Positions 1,181 to 46,641 of a stretch of DNA of 46,641 bases are shown here, in pieces. The position numbers were made by a program, and so were the translations under genes. This DNA is from Pelagimonas varians (lineage in GTDB: Bacteria; Pseudomonadota; Alphaproteobacteria; Rhodobacterales; Rhodobacteraceae): contig NZ_QKMF01000025.1 in assembly GCF_003208435.1 (NCBI RefSeq), positions 1 through 46,641 on the forward strand. Direction: 5' to 3'. The notes below the pieces were generated by a model. It ran no database searches, was not told the DNA's origin, and saw only the letters and a program-made list of their open reading frames with translations. Positions within the stretch are counted from its first letter, which is position 1. Each line of letters starts with the position of its first letter.

Positions 1181-2284
1181 ATGAAGATACTTATTGTTGG
1201 TGCCGGTCTGTCTGGTGCTGTCATGGCCCGCCAGTTGGCCCAAGCCGGACATCACATCACCGTGCTCGAAAGCCGGTCGCATATTGCGGGCAATTGCCAT
1301 ACCGAACGCTGCCCTGACACCGGCGTTCTGGTGCATGTTTACGGTCCGCACATCTTTCACACCGGCGACGCGGGTGTTTGGGATTATGTGACAAAGTTTG
1401 CCCGTTTTGTCCCCTATCGCCATCAGGTGCGCGCCACGGCGCAAGGCCAAGTCTATACGCTGCCGATCAATCTGCACACCATCAACCAGTTCTTTGGCAA
1501 AACCTTTGACCCGGCTCAGGCGCGGGCCTTTATCGAAGACACCCAAGCGCGCCGCGAGATCACCGATCCGCAAAGCTTTGAGGAGCAAGCGCTGCGCATG
1601 GTGGGCCCGGCGCTCTATGAGGCGTTTTTGGCCGGATATACCGAAAAGCAATGGGGCTGCTCACCAGCGGATTTGCCCGCGGCGATCCTCAAACGCCTGC
1701 CGATGCGGTTTGATTATAACGACAACTATTTTGCCCATCCGTTCCAAGGTATGCCCGAACAGGGCTATACACCGATGGTGGCGGCGATTCTGGATCATCC
1801 CGGCATCGATGTACATCTGAACACGCCTTATACGGCGCAGGCGGCGGCCAAGGCAGATCATCTGATCTGGACCGGGCCGCTGGATGGATATTTTGACGCC
1901 AAATTGGGGCGTCTGGGTTACCGCACGCTGGATTTTGACCGCTTTACGGTACAAGGCGATTACCAAGGCTGCGCAGTCATGAACTATCCGGACCGCGACC
2001 TACCCTATACCCGTATCACCGAGCACAAACATTTTGCCCCTTGGGAAACCCATGAGGCCAGCGTGCTATACCGCGAAACGCCCCGTGCCTGCGGCGTCGA
2101 GGATACCCCCTATTATCCGATCCGCCTGCTCAACGACAAAGCCTTGCTGTCAGAATATGAAGCCTTGGCAGCGGCAGAAACCGGCGTAACCTTCCTTGGG
2201 CGGCTCGGCACCTATCGCTACCTTGATATGGATGTCACCATTCGCGAAGCCTTGGATGCGGCCGCGGGGTTCACCCCCGCCTAA
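1181..2284 (+). CDS. glf: UDP-galactopyranose mutase
   Basis: This 367-aa flavoenzyme converts UDP-galactopyranose to UDP-galactofuranose, the donor for galactofuranose in surface glycans. The length is normal for the bacterial family. The N-terminus begins MKILIVGAGLSGAVMARQLA, with the Rossmann FAD motif GAGLSG at residues 7-12 followed by an acidic residue at the end of the second strand (VLES). The family signature YTEKQWG is present around residue 159, and a conserved Arg sits in YTRITEHKHF near residue 270, in the region that contacts the UDP-sugar diphosphate. It is divergent from the RTX gene and is followed at 111 bases by the DUF2793 gene. A possible user of its product is the GT2 protein at 27435-28427. 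Confidence 0.95.
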   Translation: MKILIVGAGLSGAVMARQLAQAGHHITVLESRSHIAGNCHTERCPDTGVLVHVYGPHIFHTGDAGVWDYVTKFARFVPYRHQVRATAQGQVYTLPINLHTINQFFGKTFDPAQARAFIEDTQARREITDPQSFEEQALRMVGPALYEAFLAGYTEKQWGCSPADLPAAILKRLPMRFDYNDNYFAHPFQGMPEQGYTPMVAAILDHPGIDVHLNTPYTAQAAAKADHLIWTGPLDGYFDAKLGRLGYRTLDFDRFTVQGDYQGCAVMNYPDRDLPYTRITEHKHFAPWETHEASVLYRETPRACGVEDTPYYPIRLLNDKALLSEYEALAAAETGVTFLGRLGTYRYLDMDVTIREALDAAAGFTPA

Positions 2285-19949: not shown

Positions 19950-22124
19950 TCAGATGATGTCAACAATGGCACCCAAGCCATCCGTCGTCGTCACGCCAAG
20001 CAAGGTCAGGCTATCGCCGGTGTCAAAGCTGAGAACAACATTTCCATTGCCATCAATCGATGCATAGCGGTCCAACATCTGCGCTTCGGTCAAAGTGAGC
20101 CCGTCGAGTGTCCATATGCGGCTGTGAACCCGCACCAGATCGCCCTCTGCCGCATTGAAGTCGGTAATCGTGTCGTTTTCGGAGAAGCGGAAGAAGCTAA
20201 AGGTATCCGCCCCCTCGCCGCCCGTGGCGGTGTCATTGCCGATGCCAAACCAGATTTTGTCATCGCCGCCTTCGCCGTTCATGATATCATGGCCATGGTT
20301 ACCCAGCAGCCCGTCATTGCCTTCGCCGCCATACAGCGTGTCAGACCAACGGCCGCCATCAAGCCAGTCATTGTGGTCACCGCCATAGATTGTGTCGAAG
20401 CCCGCGTCCCCCAACAAACCGTCACTGCCGGCATCGCCATAAATCAGGTCATTGCCCTGTCCGGCCTCAAGCCGGTCATTGTGTGATCCGCCGTGCAGGG
20501 TATCTTCGCCGTCACCGCCATAAATCGTGTCATTATGGGCATCACCCAAAAGCAGGTCGTTTTCTGTACCACCATAGATTTCATCGCGGTCCTCGCCGCC
20601 CCAAATCGTATCATTGCCGGCATCGCCCATCAAAAGGTCGGCACCGTTCATGCCGCCAATCTTGTCATCGCCATTGCCGCCACGACCGGTATCAGCCCCA
20701 TCACCCAGCCAAATCCGGTCCCAACCGTTTTCGCCCAGAACACTATCATCACCACCTTGGGTCGTGATTGTATTCGCAGCCCAGTTGCCGGTCACAGTGT
20801 CATCACCGCTGCCGGTTATCAGATCCTCGATCGTGGTGTTGCGGGCGATACCGATATTACCAACCAGCCCACCTACGTCAGAAAAACTTTCGGCATTGAG
20901 GTTGAAGTTGATGGCATCGGCTTGCGACCGGAAGTCAATTCTGTCGGTGCCGCTGACATCATAAATCGTAATGGTGATGGGGTCCGAAGGCAAAGCCCCA
21001 TCTGCCAGATACCGGTCCATATAGGTGCCAAGAGTTCCATTTTCGCCCCATGTGGTGTCCCCTGCCGTGGGGCTGGAACTGTCATCGGGCGCGCCGTAAT
21101 GCTCTTGAATGGCAACGACATCGACCATCATCGCGCTCATGGGTTCGGCATAACTGGCGTCGACAGTTGTGTTGTCGTCTTGTTGAAAATAGGACATCAC
21201 CGACAGCTGGTAGCTGTCATTGCTAAAGGTAGCGTCATATGGGTAGCTGGCTTCACCGTCATAGCTGCCTTGATGGCCCAGACCCAGCGCGTGGCCGATT
21301 TCATGGATATAAGTCGACATCGTGTAAGAGGTCACGCCGGACCCATAACGCCCAATCCAGGAGCTCGAGATGTTTACCGTCGAGCTCAGGATGGTCCCGT
21401 CAAGAGTATAGGTCGATCCGGCAAAAGCCCCGCTTTTGTTGTCATCAAACGTGATATCCGCCCCGCCCGAAGACGTTTCCACAAACTCAAGATCGGCCAC
21501 GGTTTCCCAAGCCTCAAGCGCCCAGCGGGCCAATTTCTTGCCCTCAGAGGTCAACCCATTGAGGTTCACTGTCAGCTCATTGCTTCGCGATGTGTCAAAA
21601 CTGCGCTCCGAGCCCCAATAGCCTGACAGCAAATAGGTGGCCATTTCATCAATCGTACCCGCGCCATCGGCGCTGGAGGCCTGGGCGTGGGCCTCGCTGG
21701 TCAACCGGTAGCTGCCCTGATCGTCTTCACCATAGCCGCGCACATACAAATAGTGAGTGCCGCTGGTCTCAGCCGTAAAGGTCAAGGAAGGTTCTTTGGC
21801 AACCGGGCTGACATCGTCACTATAATCCAGATAGCCACCGTTTGCGTCTTGTATCTGAAGGTAAGGGTCCTCCAGCGCATATCCGCTTTGGCTGCCCTCT
21901 ACCGTAAAGATATAGCTTTGACCTGCGGTCAGGCTGATCTCGATCCAGTCAGTGTCGGAGTCAGAGTTGATCGTCCCGGTAAAACTGTCCCCGACAGACA
22001 TCTCGTACCGGGTATTGACGCCCCCTGCTGCATCATTGCCCTCTCTGAGTGCCGCAAAAACCGGTTCTGAGTCCAAATGACGATTGGGATCAAAGTTCTG
22101 ACTGGCGCTACAAAGCGTGCACAT
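19950..22124 (-). CDS. Serralysin-type (M10) RTX metalloprotease with N-terminal PPC-like domain
   Basis: This 724-aa secreted zinc protease has the catalytic motif HEIGHALGLGH at residues 274-284 and the Met-turn SVMSYF at 308-313. Before it, residues 35-145 resemble a bacterial pre-peptidase C-terminal (PPC) beta-sandwich (DSFTGTINSDSDTDWIEI). After the catalytic domain, RTX repeats run from about 460 to 650 and end in the serralysin C-terminal secretion region. The N-terminus begins MCTLCSASQNF, a common non-signal start for roseobacter members. Export is expected to use a type I system located elsewhere. It neighbours the replication block and may turn over matrix proteins, but its substrate is unknown. 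Confidence 0.92.
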   Translation of the reverse strand: MCTLCSASQNFDPNRHLDSEPVFAALREGNDAAGGVNTRYEMSVGDSFTGTINSDSDTDWIEISLTAGQSYIFTVEGSQSGYALEDPYLQIQDANGGYLDYSDDVSPVAKEPSLTFTAETSGTHYLYVRGYGEDDQGSYRLTSEAHAQASSADGAGTIDEMATYLLSGYWGSERSFDTSRSNELTVNLNGLTSEGKKLARWALEAWETVADLEFVETSSGGADITFDDNKSGAFAGSTYTLDGTILSSTVNISSSWIGRYGSGVTSYTMSTYIHEIGHALGLGHQGSYDGEASYPYDATFSNDSYQLSVMSYFQQDDNTTVDASYAEPMSAMMVDVVAIQEHYGAPDDSSSPTAGDTTWGENGTLGTYMDRYLADGALPSDPITITIYDVSGTDRIDFRSQADAINFNLNAESFSDVGGLVGNIGIARNTTIEDLITGSGDDTVTGNWAANTITTQGGDDSVLGENGWDRIWLGDGADTGRGGNGDDKIGGMNGADLLMGDAGNDTIWGGEDRDEIYGGTENDLLLGDAHNDTIYGGDGEDTLHGGSHNDRLEAGQGNDLIYGDAGSDGLLGDAGFDTIYGGDHNDWLDGGRWSDTLYGGEGNDGLLGNHGHDIMNGEGGDDKIWFGIGNDTATGGEGADTFSFFRFSENDTITDFNAAEGDLVRVHSRIWTLDGLTLTEAQMLDRYASIDGNGNVVLSFDTGDSLTLLGVTTTDGLGAIVDII

Positions 22125-28434: not shown

Positions 28435-29310
28435 TTAGTTGTTCAGGATATCCCGGTGAAACCGCGCCATGAGAATAATGCCGAAAAACAAAAAGATCAG
28501 ACTGAACAACACGCAATAGGTTACCGAGATGTAATCGGGGTTATACGTCGGATAAAACCCGTCGCGCATCGTGGCGGTTATATGCACCAAGGGATTGTAC
28601 CACAAAATTTCCCGAACCTTGGCCGGCAAATCTTCGTACATGAAGATCACGCCGGACAACAAAACCAGTGGCCGCGAAATGATTGACCAGAACTGCTTCC
28701 AAACAGGAAACAGCCCATCGACGGCGCAATTGAACACGCCAATCGACAGACCCAAGAGACAGGTCATACCAAAGCTGGTCAGAATCGGGCCGCCGTCTAG
28801 CGCAACGCGGGTATCGGTGACCGCGAGAAGGCTGGCGCAGATGACCAAAGTGACCAGGATTCCGGTCAGCGAATTTAACACAAAGCGCGCCAGCATGGCA
28901 TCTACCCAGGTTACCGCCGGATACATCAGAAGGGCGCGCGAAAAGCTGATACTGCGCGCAATGGCTTTCGAGAGGCTTTGAAACAGGGTAAAGGGCAGAA
29001 ACCCGGTCGCATAGAACAAGATGAAACTATTGCCGATCGGCGGCGATCTCAGCATCACTGAAAAGCCTATCGCCATGATCAAAATAACGCCCATCGGCTC
29101 AAGCAAGGCCCAAACATATCCCCCCGGAGAGCGTCCGTAGCGCGTTGCCATTTCCCGGATCATCAAGGCTGTCACGGCTTTACCTGTGGCAAAGCTGCGG
29201 TTGGTTCCATAGCCCGGCTGCTGGCCGGGCCTTTGGGCCTGACGTATGGGCGTGGGCGCCCGGGGGATGCCCGCATGCGGTGCAGAAGGCGGGTTCACAG
29301 GTCGGGTCAT
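28435..29310 (-). CDS. kpsM: Capsular polysaccharide ABC transporter permease (KpsM-like)
   Basis: This 291-aa protein has a Pro-rich N-terminal 30 residues, a TNRSFATGKAVTALMIREMATRYGRSPGGYVWALLEP cytoplasmic entry region, and six predicted membrane segments. It ends in LFFGIILMARFHRDILNN. The layout is that of ABC-2 polysaccharide permeases (group 2 capsule). It would form the inner-membrane channel with KpsT. It is divergent from kpsE by about 100 bases and on the strand opposite to kpsT, which is unusual, since kpsM and kpsT are normally adjacent in one operon. Confidence 0.88.
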   Translation of the reverse strand: MTRPVNPPSAPHAGIPRAPTPIRQAQRPGQQPGYGTNRSFATGKAVTALMIREMATRYGRSPGGYVWALLEPMGVILIMAIGFSVMLRSPPIGNSFILFYATGFLPFTLFQSLSKAIARSISFSRALLMYPAVTWVDAMLARFVLNSLTGILVTLVICASLLAVTDTRVALDGGPILTSFGMTCLLGLSIGVFNCAVDGLFPVWKQFWSIISRPLVLLSGVIFMYEDLPAKVREILWYNPLVHITATMRDGFYPTYNPDYISVTYCVLFSLIFLFFGIILMARFHRDILNN

Positions 29311-29413
29311 CAGGGTGCTGTCTCATACTGGTCAAGGGCCTGCCCATTATGGTAAACGGCGAAGGAATATCCAACAGGCTTTCTACAAGGCCATAAAGAC
29401 CGAAGGCATATCG

Positions 29414-30880
29414 ATGACCGAAGGCACAGGGGCCCCCGCAAAGCCGGTTCATCCGGCAGGCGGGGCGACAGCGCAAAAGCCGGGCCAGCAAGGTGCTCCG
29501 GCAGCACCATCCACGCCAAAAGGGCAGGGGAGGGCTGTGGCTGCAAAACCGCCAGCCCCCAAAATTGTGCCTGCGGCCCCGAATCCGGGAGCGGCCAACA
29601 GAGCAGGACCCAAAAAGCAACCGCCTGCAGCCCCCAAGGTGGCACCGCAGCCCGCCCAGAAACAGCCCGCCCAGAAACAGGCCCCCAAACCGGCCGCAAA
29701 ATCGGCGTCCCAACCGGGAGAAAAGCCGGTCAAGCCTGTCGCGACCCGCACCCGTATGCGGCGGCGACACTGGGGCCTTGTCATGTCCTTTGTCGCGGTG
29801 GTCTTGGTGCCATTTTCCGTGGTGTGCTTTTACCTTTGGGCGATTGCCGCTGACCAATATGGGTCGGTCACCGGATTTACCGTGCGCAAAGAAGAGGGCG
29901 GAAATGCCTCTGAACTGCTGGGGGGCTTGTCGCAGCTCACAGGCTCCAACAGCGCGTCGGATGGTGATATCCTATATGAATTTGTCCTGAGCCAAAGTCT
30001 GGTGCAGGCGGTCGAAGCCGAAACCGGGCTGGTGGCGCATTACACCCAGCTTTGGCCCAAAGACCCGGTCTTTGCCCTATGGCCCGACCCCACCATCGAA
30101 GACCTTGAGTGGTATTGGCAGCGGATCGTCAAAGTGGCCTTTGATTCGGGATCGGGATTGATCGAGGTAAAGGTTTTGGCTTTCGAGCCGGAAAAAGCCC
30201 GACAAATCGCGCGGGTTATCGTGGACAAAAGCCAGGAGATGATCAACGCCCTGAACGTGCAGGCGCGCGAAGATTCCATGCGCTATGCGCGCAGCGATCT
30301 GGCCGAGGCGGTTGAGCGGCTGAAAATTGCACGAGAGGCTCTGACCGCGTTTCGCACCCGAACCCAGATTGTTGATCCCGAGGCGGATATTCAGGGCCGC
30401 ATGGGGGTGATGAACAATCTTCAGCAACAACTGGCCGAGTCGCTGATTGAATATGATTTGCTCAGCGGGACGACCAATGCCGATGATCCGCGACTTGTCC
30501 AAGAAAGCCGCCGCATTCAGGTGATCCGGGACCGCATTGCCAGTGAACGCCAAAGTTTTGCTTCGGAAGGCCCCTCCGCCGGGACGGGGGCAGATGCCAC
30601 CGGAGATGACTATCCCAGCCTGATTGCCGAATATGAAGGGTTGATTGTGGACCGGGAGTTTAGCGAAGAAACCTACCGCGCCGCATTGACGGCCTTGGGG
30701 CTTGCCCGCGCCAATGCCCAACGCCAAAGCCGCTATTTGGCCACCTATGTCCGGCCCACCTTGGCCGAAAGCAGCGAATACCCGCGCCGCAGCACCATCG
30801 CAGCACTGTTTGGTCTGTTTGTACTGCTGACCTGGTCGGTGCTGGCTTTGGTCTATTATTCGATCCGCGACAGGGCGTAA
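29414..30880 (+). CDS. kpsE: Capsule polysaccharide export inner-membrane protein (KpsE-like, PCP family)
   Basis: The start ATG is at 29414, with GAAGG seven bases before it; the frame reads back to 29246 but would overlap kpsM. The protein has 488 aa. Residues 1-115 are Pro/Ala/Lys-rich and likely cytoplasmic and disordered. Membrane segment 1 is at about 120-144 and segment 2 at 462-482, with a large periplasmic part between them that includes SLVQAVEAETGL, FEPEKARQIARVIVDKSQEM and coiled-coil helices, the pattern of KpsE/CtrB/BexC proteins. It links the ABC transporter to an outer-membrane channel. No KpsD or Wza homologue is on this plasmid. Confidence 0.9.
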   Translation: MTEGTGAPAKPVHPAGGATAQKPGQQGAPAAPSTPKGQGRAVAAKPPAPKIVPAAPNPGAANRAGPKKQPPAAPKVAPQPAQKQPAQKQAPKPAAKSASQPGEKPVKPVATRTRMRRRHWGLVMSFVAVVLVPFSVVCFYLWAIAADQYGSVTGFTVRKEEGGNASELLGGLSQLTGSNSASDGDILYEFVLSQSLVQAVEAETGLVAHYTQLWPKDPVFALWPDPTIEDLEWYWQRIVKVAFDSGSGLIEVKVLAFEPEKARQIARVIVDKSQEMINALNVQAREDSMRYARSDLAEAVERLKIAREALTAFRTRTQIVDPEADIQGRMGVMNNLQQQLAESLIEYDLLSGTTNADDPRLVQESRRIQVIRDRIASERQSFASEGPSAGTGADATGDDYPSLIAEYEGLIVDREFSEETYRAALTALGLARANAQRQSRYLATYVRPTLAESSEYPRRSTIAALFGLFVLLTWSVLALVYYSIRDRA

Positions 30881-31651: not shown

Positions 31652-32419
31652 GTGCGTGCAATCCTGTCAAAACTTGGATCTCCGCGGCCCGCTCCGCACC
31701 GCTTTGTTATTTTAGGCCTCCCGCGCAGCGGCACGACCTATCTGACCACCTTGCTCAATGCACATCCGAAAATGTCCTGCACGGGAGAACAGTTTAATCC
31801 GCGGGCAGTGGTGGGTTTGGACGAACAGGACGACAGCTATGAAGCCGTTGTGGCAAACCGTGACGCCGATCCTGTGGGCTTTATGCAGCGCATCTTTGAA
31901 GAGCCGCATCCGCGGACGGTGAAATGGGCTGGCTTCAAGTTTATGCTGGGGCACAACATTTCGGTTTTTAAGGCGTTAGAGGCCGATCCCGATATCACGC
32001 TGGTCTATGTCTGGCGCGAAAACCGTCTTGCGCAGGTGACGTCTTTGATCAAAGCGGCCCAAAGCCAAAGATGGGCGCAGGGCAAAGAAGATAGCGCATA
32101 CGTACAGGCAAAAATTAACGCCTCGCCGCGCCAGATCAGCCATCGCTGGCATGAACTGGCAATGACAGATTACTTGTTTTCCTCTTGGTTGGCGGCGCAG
32201 CCGCATCGCCAGATCAGCATCGAATATCGCGATATGTTTGCCCCCGGTTTCAACGGGAGGATTTGCGAGTTCTTCGGATTAAAGGAAGACCGCGACATGA
32301 AAAGCCCGCTGGTCAAACAGGGCAGCAATACGATTTTGGACCGGATCGAGGATCAAAAAGCGGTTCGGCACTATTTCAATACAATCGGGTACGGGCGCTG
32401 GCTTGAGGATGAATTGTGA
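31652..32419 (+). CDS. Sulfotransferase-family protein (NodH/Stf0-like)
   Basis: Start is GTG 31652 with GAGG ten bases upstream; the protein has 255 aa. The phosphosulfate loop is RFVILGLPRSGTTYLTTLLN at about residues 17-36, and the second site is VWRENRLAQVTSLIKAAQSQ around 121-140, matching the Stf0/NodH-like sulfotransferases that act on carbohydrates. GEQFNPRAV and FEYR-type blocks are also in place. Substrate is unknown. The stop overlaps the next GTG start (GTGA), so the two genes are coupled. Confidence 0.8.
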   Translation: MRAILSKLGSPRPAPHRFVILGLPRSGTTYLTTLLNAHPKMSCTGEQFNPRAVVGLDEQDDSYEAVVANRDADPVGFMQRIFEEPHPRTVKWAGFKFMLGHNISVFKALEADPDITLVYVWRENRLAQVTSLIKAAQSQRWAQGKEDSAYVQAKINASPRQISHRWHELAMTDYLFSSWLAAQPHRQISIEYRDMFAPGFNGRICEFFGLKEDRDMKSPLVKQGSNTILDRIEDQKAVRHYFNTIGYGRWLEDEL

Positions 32420-33906
32420 AAATCCTCTATTACAACTGGGTTGACTACCTGGATGATGAAAACCGCGGTGGCGGTGTGTCTGTCTATCAACGCAATCTGG
32501 TGCGGGCTCTGGCTGGCCACTCCGATGTCAGCGTCGCCTTCTTTTCATCCGGAGTGGCTTATGACCTGCTGTCGCGCGTGCCGCGCTGGGACGTGGTCGA
32601 TCAAGGCGATGCCTGCCCGCGCTATGTAATCGTCAATTCAGGGGTGATCGCCCCGGCGCATCACAGTTATGGTGATGGCGCTCAGTTGGATCATCCAGAG
32701 ACAGCAGAAACGGTCTATGATTTGATTGATCAGACTGGCCCATACGATGTCTTGCATTTGAACAACCTCGAAGGCCTGCCGGTTTCGGTGCTTGAGGGGT
32801 TCAAGACGCGCTGGCCGCAGATGCGGATTGTTGTGTCTTTGCACAATTACTATCCGTTTTGCCCGCAGGTGAATTTTTGGCACCAAGAGCGGATCAGCTG
32901 CACCGGATTTGATGAGGGGCGCAATTGCGTGCACTGTTTGCCGGCCCGTCATAACCAGCGCAATCTGCAACTGGCGGCGGGGCTGAGCTGCCAGCTCAAA
33001 TCAATGGGGTTAAAGCCGGGCAGTTGGGCGTTTGATGTGGCGTTGTTCTGGTCGTTGCGCTTTGGGGCCAAGACGGCGCTTTTGGCGCGTAGGCTGCGCG
33101 GTGTCCCGCGGCGGATGCGCAGGCAGAGCCTTGGCAGCACCCCCGGTACGCTTGAGGTGGTGGCCCGCCCTGATGGTACGCCTTTTGCTAGCCGGCGGGC
33201 GCAGATGGTGGCGGCGCTGAACGGATTTTGCGACAGTGTGCTGTGCGTTTCGGATGCGGTGCGCACACTGGCCGTGGCGCATGGAATAGACCCGAAGCTT
33301 GCCCATACCAGCTATATCGGCTCGCCCGAGTCCGCACGTTTTGCCCAAACGGTCCCCCGCGCGGTGCCGCAATCGGGTGACAGTGTTCTGACCTTGGGCT
33401 ATCTGGGCTATATGCGCCGCGACAAAGGCTTTTATTTTTTGCTGCAAGCGCTGGAAACCCTGCCGCCGGATTTGGCCGGACGGGTGCGGGTGGTGATTGC
33501 CGCGCGGCGCGGTGACAAGGCGACCATGGGCCGTGTCGCAGCCTTGGGCAGCCATCTGAGCGAAGTCGATTACGCCAACGGGTATGGCCATGACGATCTG
33601 GACCGGTTGTTGGCGCAGGTCGATGTCGGGCTGGTTCCGGTATTGTGGCACGACAACCTGCCACAGGTGGCGTTAGAAATGCATGCCCGCCACATTCCAT
33701 TGCTCTGCGCCGATATGGGCGGGGCTCAGGAGCTGGGCAACTGTCCGGAAATGGTGTTTCCCGCCGGCAACATAGAGGCCTTTCATGCCCGGATTGCGGC
33801 GCTGCTGGACGGGAGCGTCGATTTTGACGGCTACTGGCAAGGGGCCCGTCCACCCACGGGTATGCCAGCCCATATCGACGGGTTGTTGCCACACTATCGC
33901 GGCTAG
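32416..33906 (+). CDS. GT4-type glycosyltransferase, long form
   Basis: This 496-aa GT-B protein begins MKILYYNWVDYLDDENRGGG, with the acceptor-side GGGVSVYQRNLVRAL turn. It has SLHNYYPFCPQVNFWHQERI followed by CTGF..C.HC, a Cys-rich insertion in the N-terminal domain, and a C-terminal donor domain with LGYLGYMRRDKGFYFLLQAL and PVLWHDNLPQVALEMHARHIP, where the GT4 donor-binding Glu is found. A Cys block in the same place occurs in the GT4 at 9812-10999. Donor and acceptor cannot be read. It ends 13 bases from the convergent giant gene. Confidence 0.85.
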   Translation: MKILYYNWVDYLDDENRGGGVSVYQRNLVRALAGHSDVSVAFFSSGVAYDLLSRVPRWDVVDQGDACPRYVIVNSGVIAPAHHSYGDGAQLDHPETAETVYDLIDQTGPYDVLHLNNLEGLPVSVLEGFKTRWPQMRIVVSLHNYYPFCPQVNFWHQERISCTGFDEGRNCVHCLPARHNQRNLQLAAGLSCQLKSMGLKPGSWAFDVALFWSLRFGAKTALLARRLRGVPRRMRRQSLGSTPGTLEVVARPDGTPFASRRAQMVAALNGFCDSVLCVSDAVRTLAVAHGIDPKLAHTSYIGSPESARFAQTVPRAVPQSGDSVLTLGYLGYMRRDKGFYFLLQALETLPPDLAGRVRVVIAARRGDKATMGRVAALGSHLSEVDYANGYGHDDLDRLLAQVDVGLVPVLWHDNLPQVALEMHARHIPLLCADMGGAQELGNCPEMVFPAGNIEAFHARIAALLDGSVDFDGYWQGARPPTGMPAHIDGLLPHYRG

Positions 33907-33919
33907 GCCGCCCTTTTGG

Positions 33920-36900
33920 TCAGGTCTGTAGCCGCTGTTTGACAAACGGGCTTTGGTGCCACGGCACAGAGAGTTCCGGGTCATGGATCTGGCTGCGCGC
34001 CTCCGACGTCAGTGTCAGATACTTCTTGTATTCCGCCGCATCCCCCCAGTGCTGGCCGCGGGCGACTTCGGCCTTGGCTTTGGCGCGGAAGGCGGCATTG
34101 TACTTGAAATGGCCAAAGATCAGCTCGCGTTTGGCCACCTGTGCATCTGCGATGAAATGCAGACCCGCCGACAAATGCATAAACGGATGATAGCGCAGCA
34201 GCGCCAGCTTTTGGGCCACAAACAGATTGGGCGTTGAGCCGGGGATCAAACGGTGGCGTAGCGCGGATGTCCAAGCCGGTGCATCGCAATAGGGGCCGCG
34301 CATCAGGCAATGATCTAGAAACGGATCGCGATCGGCAAAGCCCGCTTCGGCAAAGGGGTCGCCGCTGGCAAAATCTGCGGCCTCAAGCGGCCCTTCGGGA
34401 TACATATCAAGCATAAAGATCCGCACGGCTTCGGCGCTGTCAAGATCCGGGGATTTTAGCAAATCAGGCAAGGTTTGGGTCTGGTTTTCCTGCCAGACCA
34501 GCAATTCATCCGCATCGGCAACCAGCGACCATTTGTGCATGCGAAAGGCGGCCATCATCGCCTGTTGCCAGCCGACGCCATAAGCCGATTTGTTGTAGTC
34601 GGTATCAACAGAAAACAGCGCGACATCGGGTTGCTGCGCCAGATATTCCAAGGTGCCGTCATCAGAACAATTGTCTGCAATCAAAAACGCAGTCACGCCA
34701 AGGCGGCGATAATGGGCCAGAAAATGCGGCAGCATGAACATCTCATTGCGCATGCAGGCAACCACCGCAACGTCGGCGTCGCGGGCGGCCTGGACTGTCG
34801 CCTCGGAGCTGATGAGTTCCAGCGCGTTGCTTTGAAACCCCAGACGGGCCGCTTGAAAGCTGGGCCAAATTTTGGGGGGACGCAAATCATTGGTTTTGAG
34901 CTGCGCCATCGCCCCGGCCAGATCGTGGTGGTTATCAAGGTGTGCCAATTGCAGTGGCGCGGCCTGAGACGGCAAAAAGCTGTTGAGCCATGTCGCGACC
35001 GGGATCGCATCCTTGTGCGAGCGGCGGCGCACCGAGGTCAGGTAATCTTCGTCAGAGACATGGATACTGCGCAGGGCCAGCAGATCGCCCAGCATTTTGT
35101 CTTCCATAAAGGAGGCGGCAATAATCTGTTGTCCCGATGCGCTTTGGGCAGCATCCAGCGCGGCCTTCATCGCAGTCCGGCTGAGGGCATAGCCCGAACC
35201 GCCATCCGCATAAGACGAGGGCTCTGGTGACTTATCCAGCTCGAAGCGCCCGCGGTCCGACGTGGATTTCACTTGGTGCCAAGCACGGTCCAACTGACCC
35301 GGAGCGCGTTCTAGGCGGCGGCCGTAATAGTGGCTTTTGCGGTAGCTGAGAGATTGGAAAAACAACGGGGCATTGAGAAAACAATCATCGTCGATTTTCA
35401 GCATATGCGCGTAGGGGGTGTTGTCATGCACCCATTTGATTGCGGCCAATGTCTTTTGCGGCAGGCCTTCGTAATCGTCGGGGGCCTCAAGATGCACCAC
35501 ATCGCCGCGCAATTGCCCGTCTCCATCGCCGACAACCACCACATAGGGAATGCCCAGATCCTTGAGCATCGTCAGCCAGCTGGCACGCAGGGCAGGGATG
35601 CGGTCATCAAGATAGGCGCGGCAGGAAAAAACCGTGACAACCGTATCATACAGGGGCGAAGCCGGAGCGCAGGGCAGCAGATCTTGGGCGAAAGGCGGGG
35701 CTTCCAGTTCCAGACACAGGCGCTTTGCATCTTGATCGGGGTGCCCCGCAAGCCGCGCCAAAGGCGAGACAAGCGCCGACGCATGGGGCAGTTCGCGCCG
35801 GGCGAGGGCGGGGACATTTGCGATCTGCGCATCGATCCATTGGGCAATCGGGCCGCTGGGTTGGCCCTGATCTAGACGGATCGCCAGCAAGCTGAGCCCA
35901 AGGCCGATCCCGAGGAAGCCTTGATCGATCCCGCTGAGCGGTTCAAACGTTTGCAACAGCGCGCTGTCTGATCCGGTTTCGGGGGATTTCTGCGCGGCTT
36001 CGATGCGCCGCGCGGCGCTGTGTTGGCAATCCAAGTGAGGCGCGCGCGTCACCAATGGATAGAGATCGGCGATCCCGTCGCGGGCCAGATCCATCAAGGC
36101 AGGATCGATCGGGGGGCTGGATGGGAAGGCCAGATGCCGGATCGCGGCGCCTGCGGGGTCTTTGGGGCCAGCCAACAGCGGGGCCGTCGGGCCGGTGCTG
36201 CTGGTCGGGCCAAGCAATTCAACACGCAAGCGGGCCGCTTCAAGACTGCCTTCCGCCTCGAAAAAGCATAGGGCGCGGTCGATTTCCGCCAGATTGGATG
36301 TGCCTGCCTTGGCTTCAAGAATGGTGTTGAAATAGTGATGCGCCTGAGCCAGGTGCGCAGGAACAGAGCCTGTTTCATCGATCATCTGCCAGAATGTCCG
36401 CGACAGACCATAGATGCCAAGACAGAATTTATGCACATCGCGGTGCATCTTGTCGGTACGTTTCAAATCGGTGACCAGCCAGACTGCGCTGCGCGTCATC
36501 TCGCGGCAATGGGTGCGGCCCCAATAGGTTTCGGCTTGGCCGCGGACCAGCGCCATCCATGAAAACAGCATACCATCGCGCAGGCTATCGGGCACCCCCG
36601 ATAGCGTTTGTGCGCGCCGCATGGCCCAAGACACCGGCGGTGTCAAAATCCAGCCCTCATCGCTGCGTTTTGCCAGATCCTGCGCGGCCTCTTCGAGGGC
36701 GTCATAATCGCCGTTCAACAGCATAAACGGCAACATCGCCGATAGGCTCCAGACATCGCCGCCCGGCGCAGGGGTGTAGTTGTTTACACCAGCGGCGCGG
36801 GCCTGATCATAGAGAACTTCAAAGGTCTGGCCCTGGCTGCAAAACACTTCGGACAGGTTGAGATACAAAAGTTTCAGACTGTCTTTTGGCAGCGCTATAT

Positions 36901-39850
36901 CGGCCAGGGTCTGGGCTGGATCCACAGGCGGGTGCGCGCTTTGACTTTGTGAAAAACGGGTCAGGGCCACATTGATCTGCGCCGTGACAGGATCGGGCTT
37001 TGCCAAAGCCTCTTCGACAATTGGTATATGGTCTTGGGTCGGGGCCGCTGCGGGCCGTTGGAGATAATCCGAAAGGCCAAGCCCGTGTGACAAGGTGTCG
37101 ACAGCGTATTGTGTGGCTTTGGGCAAAAGCGGCAAGAGATTGCCCAGTTGCACATGTTCCAACACCAGTGCAGCCAATGCAGCATCCTGTTTTGCCAATC
37201 CCTGATCGCAGACCGTCACAATCCGGTCGGCCATGTCTTGGCGGCTAAGCGATAGGGCGCTGCCACCTGAGAGCGAGAATGTGACTTTGTCTTTACCGGT
37301 TGCCCATATCTTTCCCGATGGCTGTGCCACCAGTCCGGCTTGATGGCCGCTGAAAGTGGCTTCGGTTACCAGCATCGGCACACCGTCATGATCAAGCGTT
37401 TGACCCTGCGCAGATTGCGCCGCGCGCAGCATCAAACGCGGGTCCAGCGCCAGTTCCTTTGTGGGCTTTTGCGGAATGATGTCGGTGGGGTTGATCCCGA
37501 CTTCGGGCGAAAAATGGGTGATCTTGTCCAAAGAGGCAAAACCGCTGCGCCGCCAAAGGCGCCGCTGGGTGAGATGAAACACCTCTTGTCCGTCAACAAG
37601 AACGCGGACTGTCGGCCGTGCAATATCGATTTGAACAACATGGCCCTGCCGGCTGAGGGCAAAGGGTTTGATACGCTCTGCCCGCCAACGCCCGTCTGTG
37701 TGGCTGTCATTGCAAATAATTCTCTGTTCTTTCAGGCGAAACGACAGATGCAACGGAATGTGCGGTCCCTTTTTGATGTTAAAATCGAGATTGGCAAAAT
37801 CGGCTTGCTGAAAATCGACGCGAAACTTCAAACAGGCATGGGTGTGGACAGGAAAGAGATACTTGGGCGGTGATTTGGTCTTGGCGGGTTTCGCAGGGTG
37901 GGGCACCAGCGCAGGCAGCCCAAGCAGGCTTTGCGGGTTCAGGATCTTGGCCAGACGCGGGCCGATATTGGGGTCAAATCCGGCGGGATCCACATGGGGA
38001 CCGGAAAAGCCGCGCAACAGGCTGTTGGCGCTCATGGTGGCCAGTGACAGGGTTTTTCGTGGGCCAGAGGCGGGTAGGGCAGTGTCGATATGGTGGCGCA
38101 GGACACGGGCATAAAGCCGCTTTTGCCAACCCAGCGGCAGGATGCCTGTGGCGCTGGCGGGCAGGGCGCGCAGCATGGACTTATAGGTTAGGCTTGCTGA
38201 CACTGCACGCGGGGGCGGCGCGTCAAATGCGGCGATTGCGGTGGTCGGCCAGGCCACATAGGCCCCACGCTTGGCCACCAGCATCGCGGCAAGGCCAAAG
38301 CCCCAATCCGGACCAACGCCGGTTTTCGCGCGGGGGCGTGAGGCAAATTTCAGACCCTGTTCCGCCAAAAAAGACCGTTTGAACAGCTTGGTTTGTAGAT
38401 GGGGACCGGCGCGTAAAGCTTGCGCAGCGGTGATCTGTTCGGGGGCGGCAATGTCAGGATCACCCGGTTGCCATGGCGCATCCAACAACCCGGATTCCAC
38501 CGGTGCATCCGGCCCTGTTCCCATTCGAAATGCGGATTGGGTGACGTCGGCGTCATGGCGCAGTGCGGTCTCAACCCAGTCGGATAAGGCGGCCGGGTGC
38601 AGCACATCTCCGGCGGTTAGGAAATGCACATAGAGCCCCTGCGCCAGATCAAGGCCAGCTTGTAATAGGTTGTTTTTGAAAGGAGGTTGAGCCAAATGGA
38701 TCTGGGCCAAAGGCGTGTCCCTGGCGGCGTTTCTGGCGGTTTGCGCGGCTTTTTCACCCTCACAGATCACCAGGATTTCGCGGCCGGGACCAAATTGCGT
38801 GGTCAGGCTGTGCAGCGTGTCTTGCAAAGCCTTTGGACCGGTCGCGTTTGCGGTGCAGGGAACAACCACACTCAGCGGCAGTTGGCCAGAGATCTCAAGG
38901 CCCCATGCGCGGGCAATGTCAGGGTCCCAATCGGCACTATAGGTCAGGCCCTGATCGTTGAGAAAATCGACCGTAGCCGCCACAAAGCGGGATCGGCGGA
39001 CGGGATCTTTGAGGGCGGTGCTGCGCTCGAAACTCAGGCGCGATACCATGCGGGCCATGGCTTGGGCACCGCCGGGTCTGGAGCTGGCGTGCATCAGCTG
39101 TGACATGTCGCGCAGCACATCGAATTGCTCGAACACCCGGTCACTGTCTTGGGTGGTGATTTGGCCGATGCGGCCTTGGGTTTGCAAATAGAGCGGCTGT
39201 GGCAGGTGCAAGATATGATCGGTCCGATCAGCAGCCCTTAGAAAAAACCCGTGGTCTTCGAACCAAAGTCCTTCGTCAAAGCGCAAATCTTCGATCAAGG
39301 CGCGGCGATAGAGCTTGTTCCACGCCGAGGGGAAATGGCGCACCACATCGGACCAGTCATGAAAGGCGAAACGCTGCGGTGTGTGGTGCAAAGACAGGTC
39401 TGCGCTGCCGTGAATGGCGGAATGGGTGGTGCCATTGCCATCTGGAAAACACGACTGGATCCCGCAGGCCACCCAATCCGCACCGCTGTCCTGCAAGGCC
39501 TGCCAAAGCTGGGCCAGATAGTCCGGCATCACCCGGTCATCCCCGTCCACAAAAGCAATGCAGCCCCCGCGGGCATGGTCCAATCCGGTATTGCGCGCGC
39601 CGGACAATCCGCGATTTTCTTGAACGATCACCTCAAAGCGCGGATCACCGGCGATGGCGCTTCGGGCGATTGCGGCGCTGTCATCGGTGGACCCGTCATC
39701 AATCACAATGACTTCGAAATTTTCAAAGGTCTGACTGCGCAGACTGTGTAGGCAGGCAGCGATGTGACCCGTGACGTTATAGACCGGAACAATCACCGAT
39801 ATGGAAACAGATGGTGTCAGGGCGGTTTGGCCGGAACGCGTCAGTGTCAT
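33920..39850 (-). CDS. Giant multi-glycosyltransferase protein with galectin-like domain (1976 aa)
   Basis: With ATG 39850 (MTLTRSGQTALTPSVSISVI) the protein has 1976 aa; a longer frame to 39961 is possible but overlaps the divergent promoter region. Modules in order: GT2 at about 14-250 (VIVPVYNVTGHIAACL, DGDD at 102-105); a second GT-A-like unit at 325-550 (LSVVVPCTANA, weak metal site); a galectin-like domain at about 664-785; a helical, TPR-like region to about 1395; a GT31/Fringe-like unit at about 1400-1605 (FSCRAYLDDRIPALRASW, KIDDDCFLN); and a C-terminal GT92-like unit from about 1690 (VACMRNEMFMLPHFLAHYRR, VADADELL). The last two have clear acidic metal motifs. Several modules in one chain suggest a processive or repeat-unit synthase. 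Confidence 0.85.
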   Translation of the reverse strand: MTLTRSGQTALTPSVSISVIVPVYNVTGHIAACLHSLRSQTFENFEVIVIDDGSTDDSAAIARSAIAGDPRFEVIVQENRGLSGARNTGLDHARGGCIAFVDGDDRVMPDYLAQLWQALQDSGADWVACGIQSCFPDGNGTTHSAIHGSADLSLHHTPQRFAFHDWSDVVRHFPSAWNKLYRRALIEDLRFDEGLWFEDHGFFLRAADRTDHILHLPQPLYLQTQGRIGQITTQDSDRVFEQFDVLRDMSQLMHASSRPGGAQAMARMVSRLSFERSTALKDPVRRSRFVAATVDFLNDQGLTYSADWDPDIARAWGLEISGQLPLSVVVPCTANATGPKALQDTLHSLTTQFGPGREILVICEGEKAAQTARNAARDTPLAQIHLAQPPFKNNLLQAGLDLAQGLYVHFLTAGDVLHPAALSDWVETALRHDADVTQSAFRMGTGPDAPVESGLLDAPWQPGDPDIAAPEQITAAQALRAGPHLQTKLFKRSFLAEQGLKFASRPRAKTGVGPDWGFGLAAMLVAKRGAYVAWPTTAIAAFDAPPPRAVSASLTYKSMLRALPASATGILPLGWQKRLYARVLRHHIDTALPASGPRKTLSLATMSANSLLRGFSGPHVDPAGFDPNIGPRLAKILNPQSLLGLPALVPHPAKPAKTKSPPKYLFPVHTHACLKFRVDFQQADFANLDFNIKKGPHIPLHLSFRLKEQRIICNDSHTDGRWRAERIKPFALSRQGHVVQIDIARPTVRVLVDGQEVFHLTQRRLWRRSGFASLDKITHFSPEVGINPTDIIPQKPTKELALDPRLMLRAAQSAQGQTLDHDGVPMLVTEATFSGHQAGLVAQPSGKIWATGKDKVTFSLSGGSALSLSRQDMADRIVTVCDQGLAKQDAALAALVLEHVQLGNLLPLLPKATQYAVDTLSHGLGLSDYLQRPAAAPTQDHIPIVEEALAKPDPVTAQINVALTRFSQSQSAHPPVDPAQTLADIALPKDSLKLLYLNLSEVFCSQGQTFEVLYDQARAAGVNNYTPAPGGDVWSLSAMLPFMLLNGDYDALEEAAQDLAKRSDEGWILTPPVSWAMRRAQTLSGVPDSLRDGMLFSWMALVRGQAETYWGRTHCREMTRSAVWLVTDLKRTDKMHRDVHKFCLGIYGLSRTFWQMIDETGSVPAHLAQAHHYFNTILEAKAGTSNLAEIDRALCFFEAEGSLEAARLRVELLGPTSSTGPTAPLLAGPKDPAGAAIRHLAFPSSPPIDPALMDLARDGIADLYPLVTRAPHLDCQHSAARRIEAAQKSPETGSDSALLQTFEPLSGIDQGFLGIGLGLSLLAIRLDQGQPSGPIAQWIDAQIANVPALARRELPHASALVSPLARLAGHPDQDAKRLCLELEAPPFAQDLLPCAPASPLYDTVVTVFSCRAYLDDRIPALRASWLTMLKDLGIPYVVVVGDGDGQLRGDVVHLEAPDDYEGLPQKTLAAIKWVHDNTPYAHMLKIDDDCFLNAPLFFQSLSYRKSHYYGRRLERAPGQLDRAWHQVKSTSDRGRFELDKSPEPSSYADGGSGYALSRTAMKAALDAAQSASGQQIIAASFMEDKMLGDLLALRSIHVSDEDYLTSVRRRSHKDAIPVATWLNSFLPSQAAPLQLAHLDNHHDLAGAMAQLKTNDLRPPKIWPSFQAARLGFQSNALELISSEATVQAARDADVAVVACMRNEMFMLPHFLAHYRRLGVTAFLIADNCSDDGTLEYLAQQPDVALFSVDTDYNKSAYGVGWQQAMMAAFRMHKWSLVADADELLVWQENQTQTLPDLLKSPDLDSAEAVRIFMLDMYPEGPLEAADFASGDPFAEAGFADRDPFLDHCLMRGPYCDAPAWTSALRHRLIPGSTPNLFVAQKLALLRYHPFMHLSAGLHFIADAQVAKRELIFGHFKYNAAFRAKAKAEVARGQHWGDAAEYKKYLTLTSEARSQIHDPELSVPWHQSPFVKQRLQT

Positions 39851-39980
39851 GAGATCTCTGCAGTAAGTTAACGCGGTTGTACCGCGAGTTGTGGGGCTTT
39901 GCACGAGGGGAAAGCGCGGCTTGTCGGCAGAGGGGCTAGATGCTACCAGATTTGCCAACAATGCAGGTAGGATAGGTCAC

Positions 39981-40742
39981 GTGAGTTCCCCGTATATCAT
40001 CTGGACGTTGCGCCGCACCGGCGGCACCACACTCGCAGGGCTTTTGGCAGTCTTGTCAGAACATTCTGGCGTTCAACACGAACCTTTTAACCCCGAGCGG
40101 GTATTTGGCGCGGTCACGAAAGGCTGGTTTGAACACAAGGATGAGGATCTCTTGCGGGCAGATCTAAAGCGGGTTCTGGCGAAACGTCCTTTGATCAAGC
40201 ATTGTTTTGAATTGCTGCCTGATCCGTTCAACCGGCTGTTGCTCGAGGTCTCGACCGAGCTTGGCTATGTGCAGATCGTGCTGGACCGCGAAGCCGAGGT
40301 CGACCGGATTTTGTCATTGGAATTGGCCCGGCTGACCGGAGCGTGGGGTAAACAAGAGGCCTGGAAAGTGTTTCAGGATTTGCAGAACGGCACAGCGCAG
40401 GCTGCGCCGTTTGACGCGCCGGGTGCGGTGGCGCACCTAAAAGTCTGTCAGACCTACCGGCACAAGATAAAGACGTTGATGGATGATCACGGTATCACAC
40501 CGTTTGTGGTCTATTTTGAACAGGTCTATGCGGACCCTCAAAAGGGGCGCCAAAAGGTGGCAGACCTGTTGGATTTCTTGGGTATAAATCCGGCGGATCA
40601 CGGCAACTACAACGCCTTGCTCACCGTTGCCTTGACGCAAAAGGGCCAAAAATCGGGTCGGATTTTGGATTTTGTGCCCAATCTCGATACCACGCGTATC
40701 CAGCTTGAAGAGGCGCTCGGGGATGCACCGTTCCGGTTCTGA
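39981..40742 (+). CDS. Sulfotransferase-like P-loop protein
   Basis: The start is GTG 39981 with AGGA eight bases upstream; the frame reads back to 39891 without support. The 253-aa protein opens VSSPYIIWTLRRTGGTTLAG, a sulfotransferase-type phosphosulfate loop (RRTGGTT), then EHSGVQHEPFNPERV and VLDREAEVDRILSLELARLT, the usual second region. It is close in layout to the proteins at 6623 and 31652. It is divergent from the giant gene across about 130 bases, so the two may share a promoter region. Confidence 0.7.
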   Translation: MSSPYIIWTLRRTGGTTLAGLLAVLSEHSGVQHEPFNPERVFGAVTKGWFEHKDEDLLRADLKRVLAKRPLIKHCFELLPDPFNRLLLEVSTELGYVQIVLDREAEVDRILSLELARLTGAWGKQEAWKVFQDLQNGTAQAAPFDAPGAVAHLKVCQTYRHKIKTLMDDHGITPFVVYFEQVYADPQKGRQKVADLLDFLGINPADHGNYNALLTVALTQKGQKSGRILDFVPNLDTTRIQLEEALGDAPFRF

Positions 40743-42356: not shown

Positions 42357-42893
42357 ATGATTATTGGATATGCACGTGTCTCGACAGCGGACCAAAACCT
42401 TGATGCCCAAATCACGGCTTTGACAGAAGCCGGTGCGGAGCGCATTTTCGCGGACAAGATCAGCGGAGCAAAAAGATCACGCCCTGAGCTTGATCGACTT
42501 TTGGACCAACTCAGACCGGATGATGTGGTTCTGGTGACCAAGTATGACCGCCTTGCGCGTTCTCTGGTCGATCTTTTGGACATCGTGGCCCAGATCGAAA
42601 CCGTGCAGGCGGGGTTCAGATCCCTTGCCGAAGATATTGACACAACCACACCAGCGGGGCGTCTGATTTTCCACGTATTTGCATCCATCGCCCAGTTCGA
42701 GCGTGAACGCATCCGGGAACGGACGATGGAGGGGCTCAAGGCGGCTAGAGCAAAGGGCCGCGTCGGGGGGCGCCCCCCCGCCCTATCAGCGGATCAGAAA
42801 GCTGAAGTGCTGCGGTTAAAAAGCGAGGGGCGGGCGATGAAGGACATCGCAAATTTGTTCAAGGTGAGCTTGGCGACGGTAAAACGGGTGTAG
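42357..42893 (+). CDS. Serine recombinase / resolvase (Tn3-type family)
   Basis: This 178-aa enzyme opens MIIGYARVSTADQNLDAQIT, with the catalytic Ser in R-V-S. The family blocks DKISGAKRSRPELDRLL, LVTKYDRLARSLVDLL and FASIAQFERERIRERTMEGL are all present, and a C-terminal helix-turn-helix (KDIANLFKVSLATVKRV) binds the site. The length is typical of small resolvases. It probably resolves plasmid dimers or is the remnant of a Tn3-like element; no transposase is seen, so the first is more likely. The site at 42236-42348 lies immediately upstream. Confidence 0.93.
   Translation: MIIGYARVSTADQNLDAQITALTEAGAERIFADKISGAKRSRPELDRLLDQLRPDDVVLVTKYDRLARSLVDLLDIVAQIETVQAGFRSLAEDIDTTTPAGRLIFHVFASIAQFERERIRERTMEGLKAARAKGRVGGRPPALSADQKAEVLRLKSEGRAMKDIANLFKVSLATVKRV

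Positions 42894-45845: not shown

Positions 45846-46641
<796 letters not shown>

Follow-up and report, generated by a model that had tools for sequence, protein, structure and literature searches.

Galectins have been described as animal and fungal lectins (PMC13084444), and the closest described counterparts of the system analyzed here come from plants, whose hydroxyproline-O-galactosyltransferases GALT1-6 (CAZy family GT31) combine a galectin domain (pfam00337) and a galactosyltransferase domain (pfam01762) in one polypeptide (PMC4687291, PMC8667403). For the plant galectin domain, a 2021 paper states that the function is not known and offers the guess that it holds galactose (PMC8667403). 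On the side of bacteria and phages, published cases are a galectin-like domain in an Akkermansia glycosidase (PMC9673926), a survey of cyanobacterial lectins that counts PF00337 among its families, and phage tail proteins with galectin-like folds. Here, we analyzed a complete contig of 46,641 bases (the window) from the 4.93-Mb, 56-contig genome of Pelagimonas varians (Rhodobacteraceae), in which a giant open reading frame (ORF) encodes a multi-glycosyltransferase that carries a galectin domain together with a GT31-like galactosyltransferase domain.

An initial annotation of this DNA had placed a galectin-like domain at 37490-37865, inside the giant protein. The stretch corresponds to amino acids (aa) 699-824 and is the domain recognized by Pfam PF00337, by a profile search of the PDB and by AlphaFold (Table 1), which confirms the assignment. 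PF00337 matched the isolated domain with 34.3 bits (E = 1.8e-8) and the whole window protein with 28.0 bits (E = 1.6e-6), for a cut-off of 22.1 bits, and this is the sole PF00337 match in the 4.9-Mb genome. Among 16 aligned members, window included, 15 matched the family individually at E <= 1; scanned as whole proteins, 8 of the 16 homologues, again counting that of the window, scored over the cut-off, as did every PF00337 place listed in six-frame genome searches. A profile built from the 16 sequences matched 219 distinct PDB sequences at E <= 1, the best 60 of which were inspected; the top match was the Toxascaris leonina galectin 4hl0 (E = 1.9e-15), which the window domain as a single sequence matched with E = 0.0017. 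The AlphaFold model of the domain has a mean predicted local distance difference test score (pLDDT) of 91.3 and a predicted template modeling score (pTM) of 0.85. Searched with Foldseek, it returned 325 matches at E <= 0.001, the best 50 of which are all galectins or galectin-related proteins, the top galectin matches having E = 1.2e-7 and template modeling scores up to 0.78. These results show that the domain, as modeled, has a galectin jelly-roll fold.

The sugar-site residues proposed initially are correct apart from their numbering, which is 37 lower (H701/S703/R705, N714 and W722/E725/R726 stand for H738/S740/R742, N751 and W759/E762/R763), as expected if the count began with the ATG of aa 38. 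In the domain model, whose residue numbers equal the aa number minus 696, H42, S44 and R46 lie on strand 41-46, N55 ends the following strand and E66 stands directly before the next one; the His, Ser, Arg, Asn and Glu are thereby predicted on the strands expected of a galectin, in keeping with the AlphaFold and Foldseek assignment of the fold. We then measured conservation in an alignment of 29 proteins and 126 columns, from which 11 of 40 rows had been dropped as duplicates (L015, L016, L019, L021, L034, L042), as fragments or split (L018, L051, L053) or as having another architecture (L036, L037). The seven contact positions of galectins were taken to be His, Asn/Ser, Arg, Asn, Trp, Glu and Arg. 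Nine of the 126 columns are at least 90% conserved (N724, F727, H738, S740, R742, N751, W759, E762 and G821), and six of the seven contact positions fall among them (hypergeometric P = 1.2e-7, a guide value that ignores relatedness), while blocks of the domain average 0.43-0.62 majority identity. The individual counts among the 29 homologues are 29 for H738, S740, N751 and W759, and 28 for R742 and E762, so that all six contacts are intact in 28 proteins, the exception being the Palleronia copy (L057). Among the rows left out of the alignment, L018 retains the six contacts, and L036 and L037 have Ala instead of Ser.

Two details of the site depart from the canonical galectin pattern. The Asn of H-x-N-x-R is Ser in all 29 homologues, which bears out the replacement pointed out initially; it is not disqualifying, because the first domain of the solved Toxascaris galectin 4hl0 reads H-I-S-V-R. 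As for the W-x-x-E-x-R match, the Trp and Glu are kept but the Arg at W+5 is lost: the window has Ile764 at this variable position (Arg in 3/29), and the Arg763 that had been read as the contact sits at W+4, where Arg occurs in only 8 of the 29 and is hence not conserved.

In the family of the window, GT31 comes together with the galectin domain. PF01762 was found in 13 of 388 genomes of the family, 11 of which also match PF00337; in the other two (G099, G316) giant frames hold the galectin core H-L-S-L-R, N, W-R-A-E. Galectin thus accompanies GT31 in 13 of the 13 family genomes with PF01762, within a single frame in 12, the two domains lying in two frames of one contig in G216. There, a 493-aa galectin frame (L018:230-1711, plus strand) stands apart from the GT31 frame on a small contig, either as a split gene or through a frameshift. 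In a class sample of 123 genomes, the PF01762 search returned the genome of the window only. When the 16 proteins were scanned whole, PF00337, PF01762 and PF13704 occurred together in 13; the remaining three are L018, without GT31 in its frame, and L036 and L037, which carry GT2 and GT25 instead. The latter two (L036:8475-12146 and L037:4701-8534, both plus strand) come from a different alphaproteobacterial family and have an N-terminal galectin (H-L-A-F-R, N, W-G-E-E) followed by GT2 and GT25; judged from their sequences, they are a second kind of galectin-glycosyltransferase fusion. Comparison of the two galectin sets by hhalign, that of the window family against that of L036/L037, gave a probability of 90.5 and E = 1.4e-6.

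Homologues of the window protein exist in a fused and in a split form. A tree of 28 proteins, from which L055 was left out (the trimming motif was not found in that protein), contains 17 split proteins and 11 fused ones, the latter preceded by two GT2 stretches; the label needs 4 changes on the tree. A homologue of the N-terminal GT2 part lies within the locus in all 17 split cases, upstream on the same strand in 16 and, at L050, downstream on the opposite strand; in Thalassococcus both halves are annotated as separate genes. The galectin His is residue 39-86 of its frame in 15 of the 17 split loci, the longest frames of L043 and L050 starting further upstream. The split thus falls just before the galectin, and the galectin opens the GT31 protein, often a separate product of ~1350-1400 residues.

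In the window protein, PF01762 scored 38.3 bits (cut-off 23), and the only PDB matches of the GT31-like domain at E <= 0.01 are beta-1,3-galactosyltransferases 6 and 5. The domain has KIDDDCF at 1522 and MED at 1619, both conserved, which we take to be the DxD-type metal site and the catalytic ED motif of GT31; by pattern, KxDDD is present in 28 of the 29 homologues, and the exception, L055, still matches the domain by tblastn. The order of Pfam domains along the giant protein is GT2 (aa 55-226, plus a second GT2 stretch), Gal-bind_lectin (712-796), Galactosyl_T (1484-1634) and Glyco_tranf_2_4 (1738-1835), and an AlphaFold model of aa 697-1687 (991 residues) runs from the galectin through a small beta domain and a helical stretch to the GT31 part. 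The middle region, comprising the small beta domain and then ~500 mostly helical residues, has no Pfam match, and a Foldseek search with the 991-residue model was uninformative on the helical part: of the best 50 matches, 49 are galectin-type lectins and the remaining one is a ryanodine receptor (probability 0.51). At aa 447 the second GT2-like region has FLTAGD in place of the VDGDD of the first, and it may be catalytically degenerate. No clear membrane segment was seen in the window protein by hydropathy, the best 19-residue value being 1.5 (no signal-peptide or membrane predictor was run). Where seen, the NCBI annotation of these proteins is simply glycosyltransferase.

With regard to distribution, PF00337 was found in 19 different sampled genomes, 17 of them in the family of the window. 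The counts are 11/394 in the family sample, 12/292 in the order sample, which overlaps that of the family, 3/385 in the class sample, including two genomes from other families, and 2/398 in the phylum sample, both already found in other samples; a second alphaproteobacterial family gave 2 of 4 genomes, the same two as in the class sample. The domain was absent from the 14 control genomes in each search and from the second genome of the same genus in the sample. An alignment of five members (A3), scanned against one genome per species for 84,980 species, returned 18 loci, with the narrowness of its patterns meaning that divergent members are missed and with some loci duplicating sampled genomes. 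Their titles name Actibacterium, Thalassobius, Ruegeria, Tranquillimonas, Roseobacter, Pseudophaeobacter, Shimia, Mesobacterium, Tropicimonas, Aliiruegeria and other Rhodobacteraceae, genera that are presumably all Rhodobacterales. The galectin domain was also matched in four plasmid records, while a search of genome contigs with the isolated window domain retrieved no relative and a scan of viral contigs with A3 found no match. Eukaryotic contamination was considered as a source and rejected, since all 19 sampled genomes with the galectin keep the frame open and its neighbors, in the window as in the five plasmid records examined, are bacterial polysaccharide genes.

Table 1. Positions of the giant gene, its domains and the surrounding polysaccharide genes in the window
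Feature	Position	Strand	Evidence
Giant multi-glycosyltransferase ORF, 2013 aa	33920..39961	-	TTG start at 39961
GT2 domain, aa 55-226, with VDGDD	39284..39799	-	Pfam PF00535, E 8.5e-50
Second GT2-like region, ~aa 358-600 (boundaries estimated)	38162..38890	-	PF00535 gives two stretches
Galectin domain, aa 700-825	37487..37864	-	Pfam PF00337, PDB profile search, AlphaFold, Foldseek
H738-L-S740-F-R742, galectin H-x-N-x-R strand with Ser for Asn	37736..37750	-	Alignment of 29 homologues
N751, galectin Asn contact	37709..37711	-	Asn in 29/29 homologues
W759-R-A-E762, stacking Trp and Glu contact	37676..37687	-	Alignment of 29 homologues
Middle region, aa 826-1430	35672..37486	-	AlphaFold model of aa 697-1687
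GT31-like galactosyltransferase domain, aa 1431-1660	34982..35671	-	Pfam PF01762, E 1.5e-9
C-terminal GT2-type domain, aa 1736-2000, with DADE	33962..34756	-	Pfam PF13704, E 3e-25 at aa 1738-1835
GT4-type glycosyltransferase adjoining the giant gene	32416..33906	+	Pfam
Sulfotransferase	31652..32419	+	PF13469, E 1.3e-13
Exporter ATPase, 222 aa	30929..31597	+	PF00005
BexC/CtrB/KpsE-type polysaccharide export protein (true start probably later)	29246..30880	+	TIGR01010, E 2.9e-58, below curated cut-off
KpsM-type exporter permease	28435..29310	-	NF050053, E 6.3e-28 (below cut-off); PF01061
UDP-galactopyranose mutase (glf), not adjacent to the giant gene	1181..2284	+	TIGR00031, 304.8 bits (cut-off 303.75)

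Genes of KpsM, KpsT and KpsE type adjoin the giant gene (NCBIfam scores below curated cut-offs), and the NCBIfam relatives of the exporter ATPase belong to teichoic-acid, galactan and Vi polysaccharide export, all below cut-off. A GlfT1-like enzyme, also under its cut-off, is encoded among the adjacent genes, and GDP-fucose synthase, GDP-mannose dehydratase, pyruvyl transferase and further sulfotransferase-like genes lie elsewhere on the contig. The same order (giant gene, glycosyltransferase, sulfotransferase, ATPase, sugar transporter, permease) is annotated in Tropicibacter oceani and on two Sulfitobacter plasmids, the glycosyltransferase having its equivalent place in all three. The rhamnose genes rfbABCD occur on the Tropicibacter and Sulfitobacter W027 plasmids, and rfbC/B/D in Thalassococcus S3, like those of plasmids described as biofilm plasmids; rfbABCD were not recognized among the 33 window ORFs scanned with Pfam. 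Given that it encodes a Rep3-type replication initiator and a ParA-like ATPase, as found by a Pfam scan of its ORFs, the window contig is itself probably a plasmid.

At its 5′ end the giant ORF may alternatively begin later, at the ATG of aa 38. A frame with weak likeness to Stf0 sulfotransferases at 39891-40742 on the plus strand (PF09037 18.3 bits, against a cut-off of 22) shares 71 bases with the 5′ end of the longest frame of the giant gene, which hints at a later start for one of the two genes. The contig, which is rich in surface-polysaccharide genes, also encodes RTX-repeat proteins at 19950-22124 (minus strand, with an M10 metallopeptidase-type region) and 45846-46574 (minus strand), and a resolvase-type recombinase at 42357-42893 (plus strand), close to the polysaccharide cluster.

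Taken together, these data support the interpretation given in the initial annotation, and the galectin may, as suggested there, hold the growing galactose-containing chain. We propose, with a probability of about 0.58, that the giant protein is a cytoplasmic polysaccharide synthase with a built-in galactoside-binding galectin, which holds the galactose of the acceptor or nascent chain for action by the GT31-like and GT2-type domains, followed by KpsM/T/E-type export. In such a mechanism, the galectin module would grip a galactose carried by the acceptor or by the nascent chain, that is, by the enzyme's own substrate or product; the GT31-like galactosyltransferase and the flanking GT2-type domains of the same polypeptide would act repeatedly on the held chain, with the galectin as an aid to processivity; and the finished chain would exit via the adjacent exporter. 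KpsMT exporters carry chains built on lipid in the cytosol (PMC11041684). A galectin that is part of a polymerase in the cytosol would encounter only chain or primer of the cell itself, or a soluble sugar. Since the galectin pairs with a galactosyltransferase-type domain, galactose on the acceptor or nascent chain would be the likeliest ligand. Genes for galactose sugars are present on the contig.

Several observations count against this proposal. In 8 of the 16 whole-protein scans, PF00337 remained below its cut-off (16.7-21.4 bits). Galectin folds need not bind galactosides, and the PDB matches include galectin-10 with ribose, a galectin-related protein and the fungal CGL3 with chitotriose. 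In Akkermansia Am2136, no sugar binding by the galectin-like domain was observed (PMC9673926). Within the window family, the Ser for Asn and the lost W+5 Arg mean that affinity or specificity may differ from those of animal galectins; the copy of Palleronia sp. LCG004 (L057:7953-13346) has Gln for Arg and Pro for Glu, making its galectin a natural candidate for a copy that does not bind, and the fragment L051 likewise has Pro at the Glu position. G302 holds a second, weaker PF01762 match (E = 1.1e-4; C3:40441-40593, minus strand) in a different, 1205-residue frame on the contig of its galectin protein. The 991-residue model is no guide to where the galectin lies with respect to the GT31 site, and, with a mean pLDDT of 69.6 and a pTM of 0.43, its placement of the modules is unreliable. 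Lastly, in 3 of 10 proteins tested, hydropathy somewhere slightly exceeds 1.6 (L020 1.67, L038 1.65, L049 1.74).

Part of this evidence would also suit a galectin that binds something else, or nothing. A ligand other than a beta-galactopyranoside, such as a galactofuranoside, fucose or a sulfated residue that the cluster produces, would agree with the UDP-galactopyranose mutase, GDP-fucose synthase and sulfotransferases encoded on the contig, and with a site altered by Ser for Asn and by the loss of the W+5 Arg. Nevertheless, the His, Arg, Asn, Trp and Glu with which galectins read O4, O6 and the hydrophobic face of galactopyranose are kept, and the Toxascaris galectin also has H-x-S-x-R, so that we regard such a ligand as somewhat improbable. 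The fold might instead be a structural spacer or a protein-contact module that binds no sugar. GRIFIN and the galectin-related protein, both of which have lost sugar binding, appear among the Foldseek matches; two of the seven contacts differ in the window family, with two more lost in the Palleronia copy; and in Akkermansia Am2136 the galectin-like domain makes most of the interdomain contacts and shows no sugar binding (PMC9673926). A mere spacer would not be expected to retain the contact residues, which are among the most conserved of a variable domain and of which six are kept in 28 of the 29 homologues; we therefore consider this explanation unlikely.

Two further explanations fit the data poorly. 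Roseobacters live with algae and animals and galectins are best known outside bacteria, which could suggest a secreted or surface lectin meeting algal or animal glycans, yet the window protein shows no clear membrane segment (by hydropathy only, no signal-peptide predictor having been run), and in 15 of 16 proteins the galectin lies within a glycosyltransferase chain, the sixteenth, L018, having a GT31-like stretch on its contig; this makes a secreted lectin very improbable. As for a chance resemblance to galectins, the window domain alone does score modestly against single solved galectins (E = 0.0017), but the profile E value of 1.9e-15, the galectin matches of a model with pLDDT 91.3 and the individual PF00337 matches (E <= 1) of 15 of the 16 aligned members leave it hardly credible. 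Beyond the chain-holding synthase that we favor, and as a tentative extension of it, galectin plus GT31 might form a functional unit that predates plants or extends beyond them, with the galectin as an acceptor clamp by which a beta-1,3-galactosyltransferase keeps hold of a galactose chain, both in the polysaccharide synthases of roseobacters and in the arabinogalactan enzymes of plants, by inter-kingdom transfer or by repeated fusion. Under repeated fusion, galectin would have joined galactosyltransferase-type domains more than once, GT31 here and GT25 in a second alphaproteobacterial clade.

The initial annotation had also remarked that no standard case of a galectin embedded in a bacterial polysaccharide synthase was known. 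Among the papers listed by our literature searches, going by titles and the openings of abstracts, none reports a bacterial galectin-glycosyltransferase, and we did not find the pairing within a multi-domain bacterial synthase in print (automatic domain databases may already list matches); nor did a literature search return a paper joining galectin, alphaproteobacteria and glycosyltransferase. The plant pairing, the Akkermansia domain and the cyanobacterial survey with PF00337 are precedents: the domain families are known, the galectin-GT31 pair is known in plants, and bacteria are already on record with galectin-like domains. A bacterial galectin-GT31 protein, often a separate gene product, offers a genetically simple place to test the guess that the plant domain holds galactose, and a chain-holding role, if true, would add galectin to the polymer-holding modules of capsule-type polymerases.

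Compared with animal and fungal galectins (PF00337), the bacterial domain shares the fold and the H, R, N, W and E of the sugar site; it differs in having Ser for Asn, in lacking a conserved W+5 Arg and in being part of an enzyme chain. With the Toxascaris galectin, its best PDB profile match, it shares H-x-S-x-R, there in the first of the domains, whereas the Toxascaris protein is a tandem animal lectin and keeps the W+5 Arg (W-G-K-E-E-R). Akkermansia muciniphila Am2136 similarly places a galectin-like domain in a bacterial carbohydrate enzyme, but that enzyme is a GH20 glycosidase and its likeness to galectins is structural, its authors having found no sugar binding (PMC9673926). The plant GALT1-6 enzymes come closest, in that galectin and GT31 share one chain in both cases. 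They are predicted type II Golgi membrane proteins with a single glycosyltransferase domain, unlike the window protein, which has several and no clear hydrophobic anchor, and unlike the bacterial proteins generally, which are large, carry further GT2-type domains and have ~600 residues between galectin and GT31.

For the proposed function, the nearest parallels are found in other polymer-binding modules. The SH3b domain of Bcs3, the capsule polymerase of Haemophilus influenzae type b, is reported to hold the polymer so that the growing, nonreducing end faces the active centers (PMC10299916); Bcs3 is a multi-enzyme chain with a built-in polymer-binding domain, as proposed for the window protein, although its binding domain is an SH3b and its enzymes belong to other families. 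Cytosolic sugar-binding modules that act in O-antigen assembly or export have likewise been described in Wzt (PMC9445017) and in ORF6-O7 of Klebsiella pneumoniae (PMC11231755). In Wzt the module sits on the exporter ATPase, whereas the exporter ATPase of the window has only its 222 aa; the ORF6-O7 module has an immunoglobulin-like fold, seen in a model, and is carried by a chain terminator. By analogy, the SH3b domain of Bcs3 and the carbohydrate-binding domain of Wzt may be regarded as precedents for the principle of chain holding that we propose for the galectin of this synthase.

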